A DNA stretch of 64,000 bases from Clavelina lepadiformis. Its lineage: Eukaryota > Chordata > Ascidiacea > Aplousobranchia > Clavelinidae. This document shows, in pieces, positions 6,357 through 63,970 of the stretch; position 1 is the stretch's first letter, and each line of letters starts with the position of its first letter. The DNA lies in the NCBI RefSeq assembly GCF_947623445.1, contig NC_135241.1:3970501-4034500 (forward strand), in the 5' to 3' direction. A program made the position numbers and the translations under genes. Under the pieces are notes generated by a model that searched no databases, was not told the origin of the DNA, and was given only the letters and a program-made list of their open reading frames with translations.

Positions 6357-7874
6357 ATGTTGAATCTTTACACATGCAAAGATGAGCAAAACTGTCCAGA
6401 TGTTTTGCATGAATATGAAGCTCAACTTCAGACTGAGAGCATTCCTCTTATTATTGACAATGGGTCGTACCACTGTCGTGTAGGATGGGCTACAAAATTG
6501 CATCCTTATTTGAACTTCAAAAATGTCATCGCCAAAAATCGTGGAAACCGCAAAGAAAAAGACTGGGACATCCAAGTTGCTAACGAAATTGCTGACTTGG
6601 AAACTGTGCGATGGCTGTTGAGAACTCCATATGACTTTAATGTTGTGGTTAATTATTCAGTGCAAGAAACTCTGCTTGATTATGCTTTTAAACATTTAGG
6701 TATAAGCACAGATGGATGTATAAATCATCCATTAGTGCTTACTGAAGCAATAGCTAATCCCTCTTATTGCAGAAAACAGATGTCCGAATTATTATTTGAA
6801 AGTTATTGCATCCCCAAATTGGCATATGGCATTGATTGCTTATTTAGTAATGGTTATAACATGCCAGAGTTTGATTTACCTGAGGTTGGTCTTATTGTCT
6901 CTTCTGGCTTTCAAAGCACCCATGTTTTACCTGTGTTTGGCAAAAAAGCAGACATAAAGAACTGCTGTCGCATAAATCTTGGAGGCTACAACTGTAGTGC
7001 ATATATGCAACGCTTGCTTCAGTTCAAACACCCACAGCTTGTCTCAGAACTTACTCTCAGCAGAATGGATGAAGTTGTGCATGGGCTTTGCCATGTCGCC
7101 CCAAATTACCAAGAAGAGATAACAAAGTGTTGTGATATTGGATTTAAAGACAAACATGCAACCACTTTGCAATTTTCATCTAGCACAACTCCCAGCAATA
7201 TTAAAACTGGCAATATTCTGGGTGGTCCTTTAAAACTAGAGAAGAAACTGAAGCAAGCAGAACACAAACTGTATGAACTTGAATGTGTGATTGAACTTGA
7301 ACAAGAAAGCACAGAAGCGGCAGAAAAAGTAGCTGCAGATGCTGGGTGCTCCAGCATAAAAGAATTAAAGGAAAAGACAGAGCTAATGCGTGACAATATT
7401 CAGGCCATCAGAAGAGACCTTGATGAACAATATCGGCTCGATAAAGTTGCAACGGGTACAGTTAAATGTGGCATTGAGAAATGCCAGGCCCCGGAAATTA
7501 TTTTTCAACCGTCTCTAGTAGGATATAACCAGTCCGGTCTCAGTGAATGTATTGAAATGTTATTGGAAAATTATTCAAAGGAGGTTCAAGAATTGATGGC
7601 AAAGAATATTTTTATCACTGGAGGCAATACAAAAATTGATGGATTTAGAGAAAGAGTAGTAAAGGATATGATACAAATTCGTCCTTACCAATCTGAAATT
7701 ATTGTTCGTCAAGCAGCTGATCCTTCACTGGATGCTTGGAGAGGTGCGGCAAAATGGGCTTTATCCCAGCATTGCAATTGGATGGAGCGTAAAGATTTTG
7801 AGGAATGTGGATGGGAATATCTTAAAGAACATAACTTTTCCAATATGCATGTTGCAACAAAGTCCACTACATAG
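6357..7874 (+). CDS. ACTR5: Actin-related protein 5 (INO80 complex)
   Basis: A 505-residue ARP5 orthologue in one exon. ARP5 binds INO6-type partners in the INO80 chromatin remodeller and couples ATP use to nucleosome sliding in the nucleus. The actin-fold nucleotide-binding start is seen as LIIDNGSYHCRVGWA (about residues 31-45). The second actin-fold half begins at the GLIVSSG phosphate loop (about 178), followed by a conserved INLGGYNC block. A charged coiled-coil insertion (about 288-365), typical of ARP5, interrupts subdomain structure. The fold ends with a FITGGNTKIDGF block (about 420). Human ACTR5 is about 600 residues; the difference is mainly in the insertion. A pyrimidine-rich acceptor TTCCTATTTTGAAG ends one base before the ATG, which supports this start and suggests leader splicing. 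It lies 124 bases after MED9 and 229 before ANAPC11. Confidence 0.93.
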   Translation: MLNLYTCKDEQNCPDVLHEYEAQLQTESIPLIIDNGSYHCRVGWATKLHPYLNFKNVIAKNRGNRKEKDWDIQVANEIADLETVRWLLRTPYDFNVVVNYSVQETLLDYAFKHLGISTDGCINHPLVLTEAIANPSYCRKQMSELLFESYCIPKLAYGIDCLFSNGYNMPEFDLPEVGLIVSSGFQSTHVLPVFGKKADIKNCCRINLGGYNCSAYMQRLLQFKHPQLVSELTLSRMDEVVHGLCHVAPNYQEEITKCCDIGFKDKHATTLQFSSSTTPSNIKTGNILGGPLKLEKKLKQAEHKLYELECVIELEQESTEAAEKVAADAGCSSIKELKEKTELMRDNIQAIRRDLDEQYRLDKVATGTVKCGIEKCQAPEIIFQPSLVGYNQSGLSECIEMLLENYSKEVQELMAKNIFITGGNTKIDGFRERVVKDMIQIRPYQSEIIVRQAADPSLDAWRGAAKWALSQHCNWMERKDFEECGWEYLKEHNFSNMHVATKSTT

Positions 7875-8103
7875 ATTAGCAGAGTTTTCGTAAAATTGTA
7901 CGATCTATTGTACTGCTATTTTTGTTAATTTGTTGTATGTCATACTATGGTCATGTGATCTTTAAATTGACATTAGAAATAGGTTCTTTTCAACTGCCTC
8001 ACATATACTATATTGTCTCTTTGCTGCTAGTTTTACGTTTTTATGCTTTTTAGGTTAAAATGGTAAAAAGTGTTTATATCTATATTACAAATGAGATACT
8101 GTA

Positions 8104-8503
8104 ATGAAAGTTAAAATTAAAAAGTGGCACGCAGTAGCAACCTGGCATTGGCAAGCATCTGACGACAGCTGTGGCATCTGTAGATATCCATTTGAATATT
8201 GCTGTTCTAATTGCAAAACTGCAGGAGACGATTGTCCAATAGGTAAAACTGGCATTCATTGTCAAAAAGTTACTGTAATCTTAATGCAAGTTTGTCTTTA
8301 TATTTCCCGGGACTGACTGACTTGCACACCTATGTATTATAGTTGGTTTTTTATATAAACTGTGATTTTCCAATTGTTTTTCAGTTTGGGGTCAATGCTC
8401 TCACTGTTTTCACATGCATTGCATTCTGAAGTGGCTACAATCACAGCAGATGAATCAGCAGTGTCCCATGTGTAGACAGGAGTGGAAATTTAAAGAAGTT
8501 TAA
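8104..8503 (+). CDS. ANAPC11: Anaphase-promoting complex subunit 11 (RING-H2)
   Basis: Two exons, 8104-8242 and 8385-8503, joined through codon ATA|GTT, give 85 residues (human 84). APC11 is the RING subunit of the APC/C ubiquitin ligase and recruits the E2 to mark mitotic regulators for destruction. Exon 1 begins MKVKIKKWHAVATWHW and carries the first zinc cysteines (CGIC, CC..C, DDCP). Exon 2 carries the QCSHCFHMHCILKWL core and the final CPMCRQEW pair. All zinc-ligand positions are present. The intron is 142 bases with a GTAAAA donor and a TTTTTCAG acceptor. The start is fixed by the conserved N-terminus. The third gene of the cluster; its stop is only 88 bases before the RARS2 start. Confidence 0.95.
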
Positions 8504-8570
8504 AGAGGTTTGTTTATTAATTTTGGTTGAACAGGACGCCCTCTTTACCAGCTGTTAGTAATTGCAATTG

Positions 8571-8579
8571 TCTTTTCAG
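8571..8579 (+). promoter_or_regulatory. probable trans-splice acceptor of RARS2
   Basis: TCTTTTCAG ends 12 bases before the RARS2 ATG and lies in the 88-base gap after ANAPC11. No donor or coding exon precedes it for RARS2, so it fits a spliced-leader acceptor used to free the downstream gene of an operon. It also shows that the longer open frame starting at TTG 8562 is not the coding start. Confidence 0.55.
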
Positions 8580-8591
8580 TCAGACAGCAAA

Positions 8592-10172
8592 ATGCTTTCC
8601 AATCTATTAAGAAGAACATTCAGTCACGAAATTTTACCAGCAATTCGTCATTATTCCTCAACGGCACCTATTGTGACATCAGGGTCAGAGCAGGTTTTAG
8701 AATTATTGTCAGAGATATACACACGTGGTAAGGACTATGGATTTCACACGGATTATTTTAAAAACCTTCAACAAGAAAACATCATTGTTGAATATAGTTC
8801 ACCTAATATTGCCAAAATGTTCCATGTGGGCCACTACCGATCAACAGTTGTAGGAAACGTAATCAGTGGAATTTTATCAGCCGCTGGACACAACGTATGT
8901 AAAATGAATTATCTTGGAGATTGGGGTGTTCAATTTGCTTTATTAGCTCTTTCTTACAAAAAGTATGGCAACCCAACTGCCTTAAAAGAGCAACCACTGT
9001 TTCATCTTTATGAGTTGTATGTAAAAATTTCCAAAGAGGCAGAGGAAAATCTCCAAATAAAGGAAGAGGCACAAGAAGTATTCTTGGACATGGAAAATGG
9101 TAACGCTGATGCATTGCAGTTTTGGAAATGCTGTCGAGAACTCAGTATCTCAGAATATAAAAAGCTTTACCACTCCATTGGTGTTGAATTTGATGTGTTT
9201 TCTGGAGAATCAATGTATCTTGACAAAAGTAGGGAAGTTTTGGAAATTTTAAAGGAAAAAGATTTGCTGTATTGGGATAACGGGGCATTAAAGATGAATT
9301 TGGCTGGCTCAAAATGGCTTAGTAAATCGCCTCAGATTTATCAACACCCTGTGCTTGCACGAAAGAATGGAACTTCGCTTTATCTAACAAGAGATGTAGC
9401 AGCGGCCATCGACCGTTTCAATGATTACAAATTTGACCGTATGATCTATGTGACTGATATTTCACAGGCTGAACACTTCAACCAAATCTTTGCCATTTTG
9501 GAGAAGATGGGTTTTCCCTGGGCAGATAAAAACACTGAAATGTTGATGCACGTGGGTTTTGGTCGTATTCATAAAATGCAAACGCGCAAAGGGAATATGA
9601 CCTTCTTGCATGACCTGTTGGAAGATGCTTACCAAAAGGCACATGAGGACAGACTTTATTGCAAAACACGAAAAATGCCGCTAACTCCAAAAGATGATGT
9701 TACAAAAATTGTAGCTTTATCTGGACTAATTTATCACGACTTAAAAGCGCGTTTAAGCAAAGGCTACAATTTTAACTTGGAAGCAGCTTTAGCATCTAAG
9801 GGTAGCAGTGGATTGTTCTTACAAGCCACTCATTGTCGACTTTGCAGTTTGGAAGCAAATGCTGGTGTTCATTGTATTCCCCAGGTAGATGTTGACAGAA
9901 TATTATCAGAACCATCTCTTGTAGAGCTGATCGAACACTTAAACAAGTATACAACCATGACAAAGACTCTATATGAAACGCTAGAACCTTGTATTTTACT
10001 TCGGTATTTATTTGATCTGTGTCACTTAACGGCAAAAGCACTGATTCCTTGTACTGTCAAAGGTGCAGATATAGCAGATGCCCAAGCAAGGCTTCTTTGT
10101 TTTTTCTGCGCTAAAACTATTTTAGGAAATGGATTACGCTTAATGGGTGTTCCTCCATTAGTAAAAATGTAA
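8592..10172 (+). CDS. RARS2: Mitochondrial arginyl-tRNA synthetase
   Basis: A 526-residue class I arginyl-tRNA synthetase in one exon (human RARS2 578). It charges mitochondrial tRNA-Arg in the matrix. The N-terminus (MLSNLLRRTFSHEILPAIRH...) is basic and Ser-rich, like an import presequence. The HIGH-type ATP-binding motif appears as PNIAKMFHVGHYRST (about residues 74-88). The KMSK region is the degenerate KMQTRKG form near residue 335, as in mitochondrial ArgRS. The C-terminal quarter is the DALR anticodon-binding domain, ending in a conserved GLRLMGVPPLVKM. The ATG at 8592 was chosen because it is the first ATG after the splice acceptor. It is the last gene of the cluster and converges on NUDT12, 439 bases away. 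Confidence 0.94.
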   Translation: MLSNLLRRTFSHEILPAIRHYSSTAPIVTSGSEQVLELLSEIYTRGKDYGFHTDYFKNLQQENIIVEYSSPNIAKMFHVGHYRSTVVGNVISGILSAAGHNVCKMNYLGDWGVQFALLALSYKKYGNPTALKEQPLFHLYELYVKISKEAEENLQIKEEAQEVFLDMENGNADALQFWKCCRELSISEYKKLYHSIGVEFDVFSGESMYLDKSREVLEILKEKDLLYWDNGALKMNLAGSKWLSKSPQIYQHPVLARKNGTSLYLTRDVAAAIDRFNDYKFDRMIYVTDISQAEHFNQIFAILEKMGFPWADKNTEMLMHVGFGRIHKMQTRKGNMTFLHDLLEDAYQKAHEDRLYCKTRKMPLTPKDDVTKIVALSGLIYHDLKARLSKGYNFNLEAALASKGSSGLFLQATHCRLCSLEANAGVHCIPQVDVDRILSEPSLVELIEHLNKYTTMTKTLYETLEPCILLRYLFDLCHLTAKALIPCTVKGADIADAQARLLCFFCAKTILGNGLRLMGVPPLVKM

Positions 10173-14412: not shown

Positions 14413-15456
14413 TCAATCTTGTGTTACCTGTTTTCGTTTTAAACTTTCAGGCATTTCTGGTGGAGGCGGTCGTGGAAGTTTAAAATACACTTTAACTGAA
14501 TCATAAATAAACCATTGTAGCGCAGTAATTATGCCAATCATGAGTATACGTGGCATTAGGCCCTTCCAAACTCCGTATGGCCCCAGTTTTTTCAGTGCTT
14601 CCATGGCTGAACTTCCGCTGTCTTTATTTAAGACAGAAACAATGGAGTCTGATGGATGTGAGACAACTGCACAAAATACACCCGCTATGTATCCAGCCAC
14701 AAATGTAACAACCAATTGCTCGGATTTGCTGCATTCGGATCTTGGTTTTGGGACAACATACTTATAAAATGCTTCAACCGTGCGTTCAAAACAAGCAAAC
14801 TTCATCATGGTGTATGGAATCTGCCTGCCCCACAATGGTGTAAGACCTTTATAAAACGCATAAATCCCCTCTTTAGCTCTCATCTTTGGAAATGCTTCAC
14901 GCAAGGTCTTGGCAAAAGTTGGATTCAGTTGCATGCGAACTTTACAAGCCTCCATTGGTGCGAGCGCTATGTCCGCAAAAAACTCACAAGACGCACTGGC
15001 AGCTAAGTATAGTGAGGTCCGCCACAGATAAGCATTTTCTGGTCCCAGAATACCACTGTATAGGGATTTAAATACCTCGTATAAGCCAAATTTGCACAAG
15101 CCCTGCATGGAGTAACCAATCAAGGTCGGCGCCCATCCTCTTCCGAGACCACGCACTCCCTCCTCACGAATAACGACTTTGAATCCATTGATGGTGTTTT
15201 TGTATTTTTCTGGCTCCGTTTGTATTCGACACTTTACAAGGTCAAGAGGTACACACGCAGTATGCGTTAATCCACAGCTTAAGATCCCAGCGAACCCGCA
15301 TAGAGTGTAAAATTTTGTGGAACCAAACTCACAGCAGTACCCTTCGTCCGTTACAGTGTCTGGTATTTTCACGCTTTGGTCAACTTCAGCTGCACAGTTT
15401 ACTTTGAACGTGGGCGTCTGAAAAGGATTTTGTTTTCCCAGCAATAAATCTAACAT
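14413..15456 (-). CDS. SLC25A3: Mitochondrial phosphate carrier
   Basis: A 347-residue mitochondrial carrier protein in one exon. It imports phosphate with a proton across the inner membrane for ATP synthesis. Three carrier repeats are visible. The signature motifs are PLDLVKCRIQ, PMEACKVRMQ and PSDSIVSVLN; the last is the atypical third motif characteristic of SLC25A3. Other family marks are GWAPTLIGYSMQGLCKFGLY and ARLAPMEA-like residues. The frame can be read upstream to a TTG at 15474, but the first ATG is 15456, one base after a possible CTACAG acceptor, so this start is preferred. The vertebrate gene has several introns; here there are none. NUDT12 lies downstream on the same strand. 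Confidence 0.95.
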   Translation of the reverse strand: MLDLLLGKQNPFQTPTFKVNCAAEVDQSVKIPDTVTDEGYCCEFGSTKFYTLCGFAGILSCGLTHTACVPLDLVKCRIQTEPEKYKNTINGFKVVIREEGVRGLGRGWAPTLIGYSMQGLCKFGLYEVFKSLYSGILGPENAYLWRTSLYLAASASCEFFADIALAPMEACKVRMQLNPTFAKTLREAFPKMRAKEGIYAFYKGLTPLWGRQIPYTMMKFACFERTVEAFYKYVVPKPRSECSKSEQLVVTFVAGYIAGVFCAVVSHPSDSIVSVLNKDSGSSAMEALKKLGPYGVWKGLMPRILMIGIITALQWFIYDSVKVYFKLPRPPPPEMPESLKRKQVTQD

Positions 15457-35116: not shown

Positions 35117-35917
35117 ATGTCTGCTTTAAAAGAAGCCATCGCTCTTTACCAATTACTTAAGAAAGATTTTTCCAAGAAGAATCCCAACTTGGATAAATGC
35201 ACGGAACATTTGCGCAATTTGAAGATAGCTTTAACTGGTCTTTCGTTTCTACCATCCCAACAAAGTTCTTCATCAGTACAGGAATATGTTTTGGCAAGGG
35301 ATGTTTTAGAAGTTGGAGCTCAACTCAGCATAATGAAGAAAGACATACCATCGTTTGAGCGATATATGTCGCAGTTAAAATGCTATTATTTAGATTACAA
35401 AGATGAAGCACCAGAGTCACCGTACAAGCAGCAGCTTCTCGGCTTAAATCTGTTGTGTCTTTTATCACAAAATAGAGTAGCAGAGTTTCATACAGAATTG
35501 GAACGTCTGTCAACGAATGATATTCAGAATAACATCTACATTAAGCATCCTATTGCCATGGAGCAATACCTGATGGAAGGTCATTACAACAAACTTTTTC
35601 TTGCAAAGGGCAATGTTCCTGCAGAAAGTTACAATTTCTTCATTGATATTTTGCTCGATACAATTCGTGATGAGATTGCAAATTGCATGGAGAAGTCTTA
35701 TGCTCATATATCATATCAAGAAACCTTGCGAATGCTGTACTTTGATGATCCAGTGCAGCTTCAGGACTATGCCACAAAAAGAACCTGGACCATGGGAAAT
35801 GACAAATGTTTTCACTTTAGTACAGAAAAGCTTAATGAGGAGGCAACTGTATTACCATCTGCTGAAATTGCTCAACAGGTTATCAACTACGCCAGGGAAC
35901 TGGAAATGATAATTTGA
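35117..35917 (+). CDS. PSMD8: 26S proteasome non-ATPase subunit 8 (Rpn12)
   Basis: A 266-residue protein in one exon. Rpn12 is a lid subunit of the 19S regulatory particle and helps join lid to base. The sequence is a helical PCI-type protein (CSN8_PSD8_EIF3K family). Recognisable blocks are [12 protein letters not shown] (about 36), the [13 protein letters not shown] block (about 62), [12 protein letters not shown] (about 147) and the winged-helix end [15 protein letters not shown] (about 211). Length agrees with the 257-residue core of the human protein; the extended vertebrate N-terminus is absent. The start follows an acceptor by nine bases. Confidence 0.95.
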
Positions 35918-56845: not shown

Positions 56846-57610
56846 ATGGACCTTGATTTCTTGTCCGTACCAGCTTTCAAAAATAGTGAAAACCTTGAGG
56901 AAAAGATTCCAGTTAAAAGAGGACGTGGAAGGCCAAGGAAACAAGTCAAACCAATGGTCATAGACGGTCTTTCTGCTGGAGATATTGGTTCGACGATGAA
57001 TGCTGATATTCCTAAAAAACGAGGCCGAGGAAGACCAAAGAAAAATAGAAATTTTGAAGTTGGAGGAAGAGACGCTTGTGTGGTTTGGTTTGGTGTTAAT
57101 CAAAGTACTCCACGCAGAGGCCGTGGACGTCCAAAGAAGCAAGTCAATTCAAACACGAGTGCAAATTTTCACAACAATACCAAAATCAGTGATAAAAATG
57201 CCACTTCCCTTTTTCAGCTACCCTTTCCAATAACAACTGTTAATGGAACAAGGCAAGCAAATTCTTCAAAGCATGAACGTAGTGACGATGATTTCAACGC
57301 CAAAGTGGTGTTGGTTTCATCTGTTAAAAGAGGCAGGGGCAGACCTAGGAAGCATAAATTTTCTGATATTTCCTTGAATACATATGGTGATGAAAGGTCT
57401 GTCAGTGAGAATCATTCAAATAAAAATAGTCTCGAAACTCCATTGAAGCGACGTAGAGGAAGACCCAGAAAATCAGACACTGAGGTTGCTGCATTTCTGT
57501 TTATTGTTAAGTCCCCTATTATTTTGTATTATCATGCTAATTTAAAATTAATAATTTGCAACAACTCAACTGGGGAAAATGTATATATTGCACCTGTTAA
57601 GTTTAACTAA
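56846..57610 (+). CDS. AT-hook DNA-binding protein
   Basis: A 254-residue frame from ATG 56846. Five AT-hooks are present: KRGRGRPRK (about residue 23), KRGRGRPKK (about 59), RRGRGRPKK (about 91), KRGRGRPRK (about 161) and RRRGRPRK (about 204). They are separated by Asn/Ser-rich linkers without a fold. Such motifs bind the minor groove of AT-rich DNA, as in HMGA proteins; this is therefore a nuclear chromatin protein. No acidic HMGA tail is present. The last 40 residues, after the fifth hook, are hydrophobic and unlike the rest, so they may be intron read as protein. Candidate donors lie at GAG|GTTGCT (57485) and ATT|GTTAAGT (57509), both phase 0. The true 3' end is unsettled. Upstream reading to TTG 56798 is not used. 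No specific orthologue recognised. Confidence 0.75.
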   Translation: MDLDFLSVPAFKNSENLEEKIPVKRGRGRPRKQVKPMVIDGLSAGDIGSTMNADIPKKRGRGRPKKNRNFEVGGRDACVVWFGVNQSTPRRGRGRPKKQVNSNTSANFHNNTKISDKNATSLFQLPFPITTVNGTRQANSSKHERSDDDFNAKVVLVSSVKRGRGRPRKHKFSDISLNTYGDERSVSENHSNKNSLETPLKRRRGRPRKSDTEVAAFLFIVKSPIILYYHANLKLIICNNSTGENVYIAPVKFN

Positions 57611-58084: not shown

Positions 58085-59793
58085 ATGCAGAAAGTTACAA
58101 TTCCAGATGATGAAAATCCGCGAATATTAGTTCCCAAAATCTGTCAACTTATGTATAATCTTGGTTGGGCCACTGGTACTGGGGGTGGCATGTCGATTAA
58201 GATGAAGTAATTTTTTGCATAATTTTTTGTAGTATTTTTATACCTACTATTCACAATCACAGCAATGTTTATGCACTGCAGTAAAATGGACATGGTAATT
58301 AATGTTTAATAAACACTTGATTCTCATTAAGTATTTTAGTTCTAAAACAAATTACTGTAAATGATTTTCTTGTATTTCAGTGATCAAATTTACATGGCTC
58401 CATCGGGTGTCCAAAAAGAAATGATCAAAAAAGAAGATATTTTTGTATGTGACGAAAATGGAACAGTTATTGAAAGCCCAGCAGCTAGTAATTTAAAAAT
58501 GACAGAATGTGCTCCACTTTTTATGAATGCATTTACCCTGAGAGGCGCAGGTCAGTTTAGTATACACTGTTTGCTCTGTTAACCTTATTAGATCACAGAT
58601 ACATTCAACGTTATAGGCTATTGTTTCAGTTTATGTAATATATAGTAATTCTTCCGGTTTCTGTTGGAAATAACTGAAGTTATGGTATTACATAAAGTTT
58701 CTCTGAATTAATTTTCATCAGAACTTTTTATTTTGAAGCAATTTTCTTTTATAGGAGCAGTTATTCATAGCCATGATCATTACGTTGTTTTGGCATCACT
58801 TCTCTTTAAAGGTAGAGAGTTTCGCATTACACATCAAGAAATGATAAAGGGAATTAAAAAGGGCTCCACAAATGAAAGCTACAGGTATTCAAACCTAAAG
58901 ATGTTTTCTGTGTTCTTATATCCACTTGTGCATATTTGCATGTAAGTTAGATTGCATTAATTACATGTAAATTGATACAACTGTTATGCCAAAATACTTC
59001 AAATTAAATTGCAGATATGACGACACCTTAGTTGTTCCCATTATTGAAAATGTGTTGTTTGAAAGAGATTTAACCAACAGAATGCAACTTGCCATGGAAG
59101 AATACCCTGATTCCAATGCTGTTATTGTGCGTCGACATGGTATCTATGTGTGGGGCAATACGTGGCAACGTGCAAAATCTCAGTATGTAATTTGTCATAT
59201 GCAGTAGTGCTATGCACAATCTTATTTAAATAGTTCCTATACATACCAGGTTGACTTTCTGCAGTTATTGGTGTTTGTGGTTACTAAAATGTTTGCTTGC
59301 AATGGGATAGTTTGCAATCTGTCCCTGAATGTCATTAGCTAAAACCCAATAATCTATATAAATGGTTTGAAATTTGTTTTGGACTCTTACAGCGAGGTTC
59401 TTCAAGTTTGAAACCTGTGCCCAGTTCCCAGCTGCGTTGGTTTATTTGGTGTCTTTTCAAGTCAGATGCCAGAGATTGTAATTTACGCGTAAAATGAGTA
59501 AAGTTGTGTTTCTGGTGTTTCTGGCAAAACCACAATAAACAAGTCCGGTTTTTGAGCTATCCTGTCCAATTAGGAAAGCTACCCTTGGTCTGGTTTGGTT
59601 AAGTAGTGTATCCTCCTGCATGTTATTGCAGTATAATAAGCAAGATTTACATTCCTATCTTCTAACACGTAGTATATATGCATGATGTTACAGAGCTGAG
59701 TGCTACCATTATCTGTTCGAATTAGCAGTTAAAATGAAGCAGCACGGTATTGAACCAGATGAGTTTCCCAAGGACGAACACGGTATAGTTTAG
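58085..59793 (+). CDS. APIP: Methylthioribulose-1-phosphate dehydratase (APIP)
   Basis: Five exons: 58085-58206, 58381-58550, 58755-58884, 59015-59182 and 59694-59793. Phases agree, 229 residues (human 242). The enzyme converts 5-methylthioribulose 1-phosphate to the diketo compound in the cytosolic methionine salvage pathway; the human protein also inhibits apoptosome and pyroptosis signalling. It has the class II aldolase fold: [13 protein letters not shown] (about residues 25-37), MAPSGVQKE, zinc ligands in AVIHSHDH, catalytic Glu in [10 protein letters not shown], and the third zinc His in RRHGIYVWG. It ends [11 protein letters not shown], close to the family C-terminus. ATG 58085 overlaps an ACATGCAG that could instead be a splice acceptor (exon from 58091). 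In that case the N-terminus lies upstream, possibly in the AT-hook exon. Everything from PDDENPRIL on is secure. Confidence 0.93.
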
Positions 59794-61149
59794 AGGACTA
59801 TCTCCTGGCTTACTGTTGCAAGCCATTTCTCAATCAACTTGAGTTCCATGGACTTCATTGGGTGAACTGGTATACTTTATGCGAATGAGTTACGTGCTGA
59901 AATTCAACATTGCTTGGTTAACCTGATAGGAATCGATATTTAAAAATCAATTACATGTGCTTGTACGAGTATAATTTGCCACAAACTTGTCGCTTTAGAA
60001 CTCATTCCGTTATACGAGTAACACTTTAAAATCAGAACTAGCATATGACTGCCAAGGTTTAATAAGTTGGTTATGTTGCTCTGCAATATAATAAATATGC
60101 TTATTAAAATTGTTTTCTAGAAATCCGTTTTTTTGGGTTGAATTCTATTTACAAAAGAATCTTTCAAATTGTCATATATGTGTTTTAAGTAATTTTAAGC
60201 CTCATTTTTATCATCGGTTATATAACACCTTGTTTTTACCATATCTTTTGACTTCCAGTGTATGTGCTACTATACATTGTTATGTGCCGGTTCTTCAAAC
60301 TTAGTGTATTTGTTTTTGTACTTGACAACAGACTGTTTTTGCCGTGACAACTATTACGGTTCATTTTTGGATTTCAATGTATGTTGCTATTTGAACCTTT
60401 AAGGATATTTTAGAAAGTTGTTTAAAATTTTAAAATTATGCAAGTTATGCTTGGTTGATACTTTAATATTAATAATATATTAATGATGTTATTTGAAACA
60501 CTGCAAAGATTTGTACTGCTGTGTATGCAAGTGTTTTTGCTCAAAACTTACACTGTCGAATGTCCTTCTCAACAATCACTGCTGTGTAAAGTAACATTTA
60601 GTTTTTATAACCGGGCTTAATCATTCACTGAGTTGATGTTGTCGGTTTTTATCTCGTTGCAGTTGTATACTATTTTTGGTACCAGAGATTTAATTTGAAA
60701 ATTCTGTTTCTATAATTTTTAGGACAAACTCAACATTTGAAAAAAATGTACTATATTACTTTTGTTTTGTCTGTCCTGTTCGATGCATTGCTTGTATGGC
60801 AAATTTTTCATGTGCCTTTTGGCAAATTGATTACGTAAGTGATTTGCTATTTTGTAAAATTATGTTGATGTCACTATCAACATGCTGGCATTGCTTACCA
60901 ACCACAAACTGCTCCAGTGACACTAAGTGTAAGAATCATTGCAAATCATAATCTGCCTTAAATGCTTGTTTTGTGGACCAAACTTGCCTTTATCGTACGG
61001 CATGTTAACAAATTTGTAGTAAATGATTATGCTGTTAATATGCCACCTGCACTGGAGTAGATTTGTTTTATACTTCTGGTGAATATGACAGATTTGCTGT
61101 TAGACAGGTTGAGATCATCTTTCAATTATGATTATGTTGTTAGCATGAC
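59794..61149. other. APIP 3' flank and PIGL upstream
   Basis: 1.4 kb, AT-rich, no complete gene. A short ATG frame at 60746-60834 ends in a perfect GTAAGT donor and follows a TTTTTAG acceptor, but its phase does not join to PIGL exon 1 or 2. An in-frame TAG precedes the PIGL start. It is not called. Confidence 0.35.
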
Positions 61150-62694
61150 ATGTTAGTTGCTTTTGCTGCTGCAATTGTCTTCTCCGTTTGTATTTTGTTG
61201 AAAAAGCGTTTTGACCAAGATTACAAAGAAAACGTTTTTGGGCTAAGCAAGGTTAGACTAATATGGACATATATACTAATATGACTAATATATTGTGTAT
61301 TTGGGAACTTTATGACCATCGTAAATAGTCCTGACTAAAGTCATGAATATTTTTAAAATTTATTTATGCTTAATACATGTATATGCATGATACTTGAAAT
61401 AACATGTTTACAGAAATTGATTTCTTTGCAGGGAAGCAAAGTATTATTTGTGACGAGTCATCCAGATGACGAGTGTATTTTCTTTACACCAACTTTGTTG
61501 TATTTAAAAAATAAAAAACTGGAAGTTTCAGTTCTCTGTTTATCGACGGGTAAGACCGATTTGCTGTGGCAGATATGTTTGGCTGACGTGTGTTCTTGGC
61601 TACTGTATCAAGTTTTGGCCATTATGATAAAATTTTAGATTACTTTTTGTACACAATTACACAGGCAACTTTTATGGGCAAGGTGAGAAAAGAATTGTTG
61701 AACTTTTCAAAAGTTGTGAAAATCTTGGCATACCTCGTGAACGTGTTTATTGTCTGGATAAATTTGAAGACAATCCCAACGTAATTTGGAACAAAGAAGA
61801 AGTATCATCCACAGTTGCGGAGTATGTCAAGAAGTCTGCTTCATGTGCATTGTTTACCTTTGATGAAAATGGAGTCAGTGGTCACAGAAATCACATTGAC
61901 ACATTAAAAGGTGTCAGGTGAGTGTGGTGAGATTAGTGGTGATTGACACTCATCTCACAATTAAGAATATTGCTTTTCTTAGGTACTTTGTTGAAGAGAA
62001 TAGACAACACATTCCGCTATATATCCTCGAGACTGTTTTTGTGGGAAGAAAATATATTCAGGTACAATGCAATCAATTGATAATTACAAATGAGTTTAGT
62101 GGCCGTGCTAGTTGTTACCAGAAATTTAATTATTACCTTAATTTGCGCACGTTTTAAGCCTTTTTGGCCTTGTCACTTTTTCTCGTTCATTAGCACATGC
62201 TAATAACAGCTGGCTTGATTTTTTTTCATTCCCGCCGCGCTTTTGACGAAAATAAAATGATTGATATTTAATTATTTACATTACTTGATGACATTGAGCA
62301 TTCTTATTGTGCAAAGAACAGGTCCTAGACATTGTTTGGTCATTGTTATCATCTTGGCTTTATCCTAAATCCAAGCTTGTTGTATCTTCTATGAGTGAAT
62401 ACTTGGTTGGATATCAGTCCATGCTATATCATAAATCCCAGTTGCTCTGGTTTAGAAGATTGTATATTCTGTTTTCAAGGTGGGTGTATGTATCGCGTAT
62501 ATTAGATAATTTCGATTGAGTTTTAGTAATTTCTTTAACTGGCCAAGTTTTAGTTACACTGTACAGTACCAGGTTTCATTTTTATCTTGGAAGTTTTTGT
62601 AATGTCAAATGTGTTTACTGAAATCTTACATTCCAGATATATGTTGATGAACACTTGGAAGAGGTCTGATAAACATGATGCCAAGACTGGTTAA
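61150..62694 (+). CDS. PIGL: GlcNAc-PI de-N-acetylase (GPI-anchor synthesis)
   Basis: Six exons: 61150-61251, 61432-61549, 61665-61917, 61983-62061, 62322-62479 and 62637-62694. Phases agree, 255 residues (human 252). PIGL removes the acetyl group from GlcNAc-phosphatidylinositol on the cytosolic face of the ER, the second step of GPI-anchor synthesis. Exon 1 codes one membrane helix (MLVAFAAAIVFSVCILL). Exon 2 has the zinc and catalytic motif HPDDE (His44-Glu48). Exon 3 has NFYGQGE and the second metal site GVSGHRNH. Exon 5 has KSQLLWFRRLYILFSRYM, a conserved PIGL block split across exons 5 and 6. An in-frame TAG precedes the start. The stop (62692-62694) lies inside the start region of B4GAT1: 20 bases overlap the longest B4GAT1 frame, and its second start codon is 1 base later. 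Confidence 0.94.
62625..62636 (+). promoter_or_regulatory. splice acceptor shared by PIGL and possibly B4GAT1
   Basis: TTACATTCCAG ends at 62636. It is the cis acceptor of the last PIGL exon. It is also the only good acceptor upstream of the B4GAT1 ATG at 62675 (38 bases later). If a spliced leader used it, the B4GAT1 mRNA would start with the bases that code the PIGL C-terminus. The role for B4GAT1 is inferred. Confidence 0.4.
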
Positions 62695-63970
62695 TATGAA
62701 TCAAATCAGGAAGAATTGTTTTTGTTTATCAACACTTTTTCTCATGGTTATAAACGTGGCATGTATTTTTTACTCTCAAAACCTTCATGAAAAAGTTAAC
62801 GATGGTCTTACAAATGAAAATTTAAAAAGAAGATCGTTTGAAGCAGAGAAACTCATTAGTTTCAAAGAATCTACCTTAGATTCATCGGGAAAATACATGA
62901 TATACACTCGATTGAAAGACCGGCCTTTGACGGTTGAAGAAAGCGGCGTTACTTTGCTTACACATTGTTCTCTGGGCGAGTTAACTCATTTATCACAATT
63001 GATAAAAAGCTGGGATGGTCCCTTTTCTGTTTCTGTTTTTGTCGACTTGAGGTTTGATGAGTTTCAATTGATTTTAAAGGGATTCACTGTATGTAATTTT
63101 GATTACCTGTCCCATGTGACATTTCATGTTGTGAAACCTTTAAAGCAAAGCACTGGGCCAAAGACTCTCGATGAAGAATTTTTGCAGGCCTTCAAAGATT
63201 TCGACTGCAGGAAAATTTACTATTTTTTACGTGATTTGCAAAATATTGCCACGAATCATCCGTCTCATGTTGCTTATCCTGTTAACTTGCTTCGTAATGT
63301 AGCTTGGTATGGGAGTCGAACTGAATATGTGTTTAGCACAGACATCGACATGATTCCTAGCAAAAATTTACAACACATGTTTTTGAAATTCGCAAAATTA
63401 AATCAGGAAAGTCGTGTAACTGCTAAGACTGCCTATGTTGTTCCATTATTTGAAATTTCTGCGTCGTACTTCCGTGAAAATTCTCGTTATTTTCCTATTG
63501 ATAAAAATACTTTACTTCGATTGCTTAAAATTGGTGTTGTTACTGCTTATAAAAGCAAAAACTGCCCACATTGCCAAAATAAAACTGACTACGAGGCCTG
63601 GATGAAACTGCAATCTAATCAGGCAAATTCCATTCATGTTGCATACAGTGTTGATTGGGCCCATGCTTATGAGCCATTGTATATTTGCCCTATTCATGGC
63701 ACACCAATGTTTGACGAACGTTTCAAGCAGCATAAATACAATCGACTTAGTCAACTGTGTGAGCTTCATGTTGCTGGTTATGAGTTTGCTGTGTTAGATT
63801 CTGTCTTTTTGCTTCGTGTTGGAACCAATGATGATCAGTTTGCTGTTGCCAATCAAAAGGAATTAGGCGCTAGTAACTTGCGCTTGTATAGAGAATTTCG
63901 AAACTATCTCCCCCTTAAATACCCAAATACCACAAGACACTGTGATATTCCTCCGGTTTTTTCATTGTAA
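62675..63970 (+). CDS. B4GAT1: Beta-1,4-glucuronyltransferase 1
   Basis: A 431-residue glycosyltransferase family 49 protein in one exon (human 415). In the Golgi it adds the glucuronic acid primer for the LARGE-made matriglycan on alpha-dystroglycan. It is a type II membrane protein: short cytosolic N-terminus, signal anchor at about residues 16-33 (CLSTLFLMVINVACIFYS), then the lumenal catalytic domain. Marks are LLRNVAWYGSRTEYVFSTDIDMIP with the DxD-type metal site DID (about residue 221), WMKLQ, and EPLYICPIHGTPMFDERF and AVLDSVFLLRVG near the end. Two Met codons are possible: 62675, or 62696, which is one base after the PIGL stop. Conserved residues begin later, so the start is open. Translation from a PIGL-B4GAT1 transcript would need trans-splicing or reinitiation. 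Confidence 0.92.
   Translation: MMPRLVNMNQIRKNCFCLSTLFLMVINVACIFYSQNLHEKVNDGLTNENLKRRSFEAEKLISFKESTLDSSGKYMIYTRLKDRPLTVEESGVTLLTHCSLGELTHLSQLIKSWDGPFSVSVFVDLRFDEFQLILKGFTVCNFDYLSHVTFHVVKPLKQSTGPKTLDEEFLQAFKDFDCRKIYYFLRDLQNIATNHPSHVAYPVNLLRNVAWYGSRTEYVFSTDIDMIPSKNLQHMFLKFAKLNQESRVTAKTAYVVPLFEISASYFRENSRYFPIDKNTLLRLLKIGVVTAYKSKNCPHCQNKTDYEAWMKLQSNQANSIHVAYSVDWAHAYEPLYICPIHGTPMFDERFKQHKYNRLSQLCELHVAGYEFAVLDSVFLLRVGTNDDQFAVANQKELGASNLRLYREFRNYLPLKYPNTTRHCDIPPVFSL

Follow-up and report, generated by a model that had tools for sequence, protein, structure and literature searches.

In a window of 64,000 nucleotides from the ascidian Clavelina lepadiformis (contig NC_135241.1, C2:3970501-4034500, from a genome searched as 209 Mb in 95 contigs), the PIGL gene, encoding GlcNAc-PI de-N-acetylase, runs directly into an intronless gene on the same strand for a B4GAT1-like glycosyltransferase of family GT49. 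This layout is real and unusual: the end of the last PIGL exon and the start of the B4GAT1-like frame either overlap or lie one base apart. Our data suggest that the acceptor of the last PIGL intron (62636/62637; positions are those of the window unless another contig is named) is likely shared by both genes. In the fuller form of this proposal, which we judge to have about an even chance of being correct, PIGL and the B4GAT1-like gene would share one terminal exon of approximately 1.5 kb, and its acceptor could be joined either in cis to the preceding PIGL exon or in trans to a spliced leader.

PIGL and a B4GAT1-like gene occupy adjoining frames

We found that the PIGL stop codon TAA (62692-62694) is followed by a single T (62695) and then by an ATG (62696-62698) in the B4GAT1 frame, which also has ATGs at 62675 and 62678. 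The extent of the overlap depends on the start that is used: with 62675 the two genes share 20 coding nt, and with 62696 they share none and are separated by a 1-nt spacer. An earlier note on this DNA had placed the last PIGL exon, its stop and the B4GAT1 starts from the letters and had described the 20 shared bases and the TAA-T-ATG arrangement; translation and a frame map bear out all of these, the shared bases holding for the 62675 start. Three frames of at least 400 codons that begin with ATG occur on the plus strand of the 92 kb examined, and under random placement the chance that such a start would fall within 25 nt on either side of one given stop is approximately 0.16% by arithmetic. 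The pair lies on the same strand with less than 100 bp between the genes, which is the operational definition of an operon in Ciona (PMC2760879; here and below, cited papers are drawn on for the portions available to us). Tight gene spacing alone is ordinary for an operon-bearing tunicate.

The PIGL translation is unbroken over 255 residues, with GT and AG at the ends of all five introns, and it contains the Pfam PIG-L domain (PF02585; E=1.4e-21, residues 39-158). All six matches of PIGL across the genome fall at this locus. Since the domain covers only residues 39-158, the case for exon 6 is its in-frame acceptor together with a presumed likeness to the human protein, SRYMLMNT apparently corresponding to SRYMRINS at the end of human PIGL. 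No relatives of PIGL were found among plasmid records or viral contigs, and a comparison with PDB returned only weak MshB-type and deacetylase matches and one engineered binder. By eye, a TAG acceptor-like site stands 6 nt 5' of the PIGL ATG (61137-61152, TTGTTAG/CATGACATG), so that PIGL could be a trans-spliced gene as well.

The B4GAT1-like frame of 431 residues contains Glyco_transf_49 (PF13896; E=4.5e-73, residues 92-417) as the sole domain found, preceded by an N-terminal hydrophobic segment, CFCLSTLFLMVINVACIFY (mean hydropathy 2.22), that is retained whether translation starts at 62675 or 62696. In B4GAT1 a type II membrane anchor carries one GT49 domain and no GT8, while LARGE proteins have both domains; the composition of the frame fits this definition of B4GAT1. 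A comparison with PDB matched LARGE1, and no relatives were found among viral contigs. A search of the animal's own genome located at least three other GT49 loci, of which the best-scoring is 29% identical to the B4GAT1-like gene over the matched part, and the gene may be an ortholog of vertebrate B4GAT1 or a different GT49 copy. Since the window gene is intronless while this paralog shows introns by eye, we considered retroposition behind PIGL or intron loss as a possible origin, which is a guess.

Spliced leader genes and the acceptor at 62636/62637

We found 1,483 exact copies of the 16-base Ciona spliced leader across the genome (836 forward and 647 reverse), and no copy of the reversed leader used as a control. 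The great majority, 1,379 copies (783 and 596), carry a GTAAGT donor, a combination for which the reversed control again gave none. Of 100 listed places, 62 lie in a tandem array of leader genes at C6:12.14-12.21 Mb with a spacing of mostly 745 bp; in one stretch of this array (L017:100-2400, near 12.16 Mb) a TATAAAA-like motif is followed by the leader and then by GTAAGTCAATCTGAGC. Since exact leader and donor occur together in bulk and the controls are empty, trans-splicing is very likely available in this animal. For comparison, Ciona has 670 or more spliced-leader genes, of which no more than 15 are present in the reference assembly (PMC7986045). The GTAAGT donor is absent from 104 of the 1,483 copies, and all eight scattered C1 copies that were fetched (L001-L008) likewise lack it and run into unrelated sequence; two of these, L001 and L002, have flanks in common. 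Because approximately one chance match to the leader is expected in the genome by arithmetic, some of the copies without GTAAGT may be retrocopies of leader-bearing mRNAs. If so, trans-splicing would be active and such copies would mark past trans-splice junctions in the genome.

Candidate acceptors were scored with a position weight matrix built from nine hand-modelled PIGL and APIP acceptors. The AG at 62636 scores 6.25, the highest value for any of the 15 AGs listed from 62480 to 62800, and 62505 (5.69) and 62526 (5.09) come close. The matrix is weak: one modelled APIP acceptor, once excluded from the matrix, scores -6.77, and among the 3,466 AGs scored in the window 62636 comes approximately 116th. 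The description of 62636 as the only good acceptor before B4GAT1 therefore stands as to its top score and is too strong in the word only, given 62505 and 62526. A cis donor is paired with this acceptor upstream (AAG/GTGGGT at 62479/62480), which is a feature of the Ciona class TS-1stAS (PMC11155486). As a separate candidate, a PIGL-B4GAT1 fusion protein made by joining exon 5 to the AG at 62661, in a register worked out by hand, was rejected; that AG scores -1.62.

Intron 5 (62480-62636) lacks all 12 poly(A)-signal hexamers that were sought, which weakly argues against cleavage there. There is no AATAAA between 62251 and 63578, and AATAAA, AATACA and CATAAA lie 3' of B4GAT1 at 64158-64166, just outside the window. 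Upstream of PIGL, the APIP gene (two exons matching class II aldolase, PF00596, with E=3.5e-6 and 1.2e-8) ends at 59793 and has its own AATAAA at 60090, approximately 300 nt past its stop; PIGL is therefore probably the first gene of a new transcription unit. Given the hexamer-free intron 5, the AATAAA after B4GAT1 and the separate AATAAA of APIP, PIGL and B4GAT1 appear to form a single unit in which the 3' end is common to both. The gene after B4GAT1 appears by eye to be convergent, with minus-strand coiled-coil-like frames.

A terminal exon that may serve two genes

We hypothesize that the common terminal exon would begin at 62637, include the poly(A) signal at 64158 and end at about 64.18 kb. 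Joining of exon 5 to 62637 in cis would yield the PIGL mRNA, whose 3' untranslated region would in effect be the B4GAT1 frame. Joining of the leader to 62637 in trans would yield the B4GAT1 mRNA, in which the 38 nt past the leader would be the coding end of PIGL, so that 16+38 nt would stand ahead of the ATG at 62675 (A at -3). Ribosomes would scan beyond two weak ATGs (62641 and 62647) to reach 62675; alternatively, they would reinitiate at 62696 following a 17-codon frame, and the peptides from 62641 and 62647 would terminate one base before that ATG.

Trans-splicing at 62637 might draw on a single promoter, with cis and trans joining in competition, or on a shorter RNA whose promoter lies within PIGL. 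We lean slightly towards the second form, since trans-splicing favors the first acceptor of a transcript; an internal promoter would leave the same acceptor shared by the two genes without competition for one precursor. The strictest form, which we consider rather unlikely, would have one promoter and one precursor, no cleavage or polyadenylation between the genes and a shared terminal exon with two frames, so that the choice of the last acceptor between its cis donor and the leader would determine whether one or the other of two unrelated glycan enzymes is produced (a splice-switch operon). Such an operon may have originated through insertion of an intronless GT49 copy after the PIGL stop, with the new gene coming to use the PIGL acceptor.

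Several observations weigh against a shared acceptor and a common terminal exon. Trans-splicing in Ciona is frequent at, and prefers, the first functional cis acceptor (PMC11155486), while 62636 is the fifth and last acceptor of PIGL and would come first only if transcription started inside PIGL. Weaker first donors accompany more trans-splicing in Ciona (PMC11155486), and by eye the GTGGGT donor of the last PIGL intron shows no evident weakness. At the acceptors by which flatworms resolve their operons, cis-splicing is strongly suppressed (PMC12582326). The lack of hexamers in intron 5 is likely to arise by chance, zero hexamers in 157 nt being seen in 53% of 2,000 first-order Markov resamplings. 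Furthermore, the region 62637-63970 contains one AATAAA (63578) and one ATTAAA (63397), two signals against 2.3 expected by chance, and both lie inside the B4GAT1 frame, where they could end PIGL mRNAs. A search of the genome for retrocopies in which the leader end is joined to the sequence from 62637 onward, allowing up to 3 mismatches, gave three matches, all with 3 mismatches, compared to two for the reversed control; this counts weakly, as such a retrocopy need not exist. The operon suggested in the earlier note, with one acceptor used in cis or in trans, thus has partial support: the abundance of leader genes, the top score of 62636, the hexamer-free intron and the URM1-CHERP linkage described below speak for it, while the first-acceptor preference of Ciona and the block on cis-splicing in flatworms count against it, and no genomic leader-62637 join was found above the control.

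Alternative explanations

A serious rival of the shared acceptor is transcription of the B4GAT1-like gene from a separate promoter within PIGL (exon 5 to intron 5), with an ordinary capped 5' end, so that the two genes would be nested units and the acceptor would belong to PIGL only. Such a promoter would not be out of place, as 2,535 of 12,397 non-operonic Ciona genes showed no trans-splice site (PMC11155486) and a start in intron 5 would sit near the ATG. An RNA started in intron 5 would however hold 62636 as an unpaired acceptor, the usual substrate of the leader in species that trans-splice, and we consider this alternative somewhat improbable. A trans-spliced operon could also use a different AG of intron 5 (62526, 62553 or 62566), in which case PIGL and B4GAT1 would have separate acceptors. 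A trans-spliced gene of Ciona has, on average, between three and four such sites (PMC11155486), and on a weak matrix the score of 62526 is not far from that of 62636 (5.09 vs 6.25). We regard the use of another AG as unlikely, given that 62636 has the top score and that the longer 5' leaders would add ATGs at 62602 and 62609.

It is also conceivable that only a dicistronic PIGL-B4GAT1 mRNA is made and that B4GAT1 is translated by termination and reinitiation at TAA-T-ATG. In eukaryotic dicistronic mRNAs such as MOCS1 and SNURF-SNRPN, overlapping or adjoining frames on a single mature RNA, like those of PIGL and B4GAT1, are translated into two proteins. The second frame in mRNAs of this type is not known to depend on a leader for an mRNA of its own, unlike the arrangement proposed here. 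The TAA-T-ATG geometry, the A at -3 of the ATG at 62696, the hexamer-free last intron and the lack of AATAAA until 63578 would all suit a dicistronic mRNA. Reinitiation after a frame of 255 codons is generally inefficient in eukaryotes and the leader offers an easier route, which makes this explanation distinctly unlikely. An error in the gene model, with PIGL ending elsewhere and 62637-62694 being only the 5' untranslated region of B4GAT1, appears very unlikely. The last exon is indeed short, and reading through exon 5 into the intron meets a stop at 62519; against this, exon 6 is in frame at the acceptor, none of the 12 hexamers occurs in the intron, and exon 6 begins with YMLMNT, presumably the counterpart of YMRINS at the end of human PIGL.

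Relation to known operons and trans-splice acceptors

We compared the proposed shared acceptor with systems in which the spliced leader resolves neighboring genes. In Ciona, 1,310 candidate operons with directly abutted member genes were reported (PMC2760879, Satou et al. 2008), and a reanalysis that tolerated no more than 1 bp between genes kept 1,128 of 1,172 operons (PMC7986045). The PIGL/B4GAT1-like locus resembles these leader-resolved operons in being a spacer-free pair on the same strand, in the exact Ciona leader in the genome and in having an intronless member. It differs in that the upstream mRNA of a Ciona operon ends where the trans-spliced mRNA begins, whereas here the frames overlap and the top acceptor lies upstream of the PIGL coding end (PMC2760879, PMC7986045). 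In abutting operons the poly(A) end of the upstream gene lies just before the acceptor; here 62636 precedes the PIGL stop and no hexamer is present in the intron before it, so trans-splicing of B4GAT1 at 62636 would lack this feature. Single-exon genes are enriched in Ciona operons and most of all in first position (PMC2760879, PMC7986045), whereas the intronless gene here is second.

An acceptor that can be joined either to an upstream donor in cis or to the leader is found in the TS-1stAS class of Ciona (PMC11155486) and among the internal spliced leader acceptors of flatworms (PMC12582326, PMC5832876). Flatworm acceptors are extensively common to cis and trans splicing (PMC12582326), cis and trans splicing compete for intron acceptors in Schistosoma (PMC5832876), and approximately 60% of 9,817 major trans-splice sites in Ciona lie in 5' untranslated regions (PMC11155486). 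In these systems both products come from one gene, whereas the acceptor at 62636 is the last of its gene and would serve two unrelated enzymes in different frames. Our search of the published literature, in the portions available, found neither a PIGL-B4GAT1 operon nor an operon acceptor inside the upstream coding sequence. Each half of the mechanism is thus known, and in those same portions we did not find their combination over two genes with overlapping frames described.

For a comparison pair within the same genome we used URM1 (PF09138, E=2.6e-34) and the next gene on that strand, which is CHERP-like and contains a Surp module (PF01805, E=2.3e-18; C5:14433780-14434745, minus strand, L020:3780-4745). 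The order matches the published Ciona operon DTL-URM1-CHERP (PMC2760879), and this is one pair. The interval of approximately 660 nt contains one ATTAAA and ten YAG sites, with one AG 43 nt past the start of the ATTAAA, and is compatible with the published abutting layout.

With overlapping frames across a shared acceptor, the leader could not separate the pair without truncating the upstream protein. If RNA confirms the shared acceptor, the locus would be a new variant of the tunicate operon, and if the shared terminal exon is true, competition between cis and trans splicing would choose between two different proteins. The locus also lets the one-promoter and two-promoter models of trans-splicing be told apart. 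It is also a caution for annotators, as gene models will probably fuse or truncate pairs of this kind.

Features of the locus and other observations in the window

Table 1. Features of the PIGL/B4GAT1-like locus and other GT49 loci in the genome (window positions unless a contig is given)
Feature	Position	Strand	Details
PIGL (GlcNAc-PI de-N-acetylase) coding sequence, 6 exons	61150-61251, 61432-61549, 61665-61917, 61983-62061, 62322-62479, 62637-62694	+	translation
PIGL last intron, 157 nt	62480..62636	+	donor AAG/GTGGGT, acceptor TTCCAG/ATATAT
Last PIGL coding exon, YMLMNTWKRSDKHDAKTG + stop	62637..62694	+	translation; would be the 5' untranslated region and first codons of a B4GAT1-like mRNA
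Upstream ATGs 62641 and 62647	62641..62649	+	PIGL frame, T at -3 in both; 17- and 15-codon frames closing at TAA 62692
Dual-frame segment	62675..62694	+	20 nt that would code for both proteins with the 62675 start, which has the context AAACATGAT and A at -3
TAA-T-ATG	62692..62698	+	PIGL stop and alternative in-frame B4GAT1 start 62696, A at -3
B4GAT1-like GT49 glycosyltransferase, intronless, 431 codons	62675..63970	+	PF13896 match; stop 63968-63970
GT49 paralog	C4:16554304		29% identity; at least 2 introns within the homologous region, by eye (T-R/Y junction, after ISQ)
LARGE-like GT8+GT49, one 684-codon frame	C4:16455578 region, L023:1462-3516	-	locus separate from B4GAT1-like gene
GT49 locus	C6:6981362		own-genome search
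Weak match	C6:20538100		own-genome search

A search of the window against Rfam at gathering thresholds gave no matches. Upstream of APIP, a plus-strand frame at 56846-57610 is rich in AT-hooks (GRGRPRK repeats; PF02178, E=1.6e-8). Long unbroken frames occur elsewhere in the window (6357-10172 plus, 14413-15456 minus and 35117-35917 plus), the products being an actin-related protein (505 residues), arginyl-tRNA synthetase (526 residues), a mitochondrial carrier (347 residues) and a member of the CSN8/PSMD8/EIF3K family (266 residues), which suggests that genes without introns, or else very long exons, are frequent in the window.

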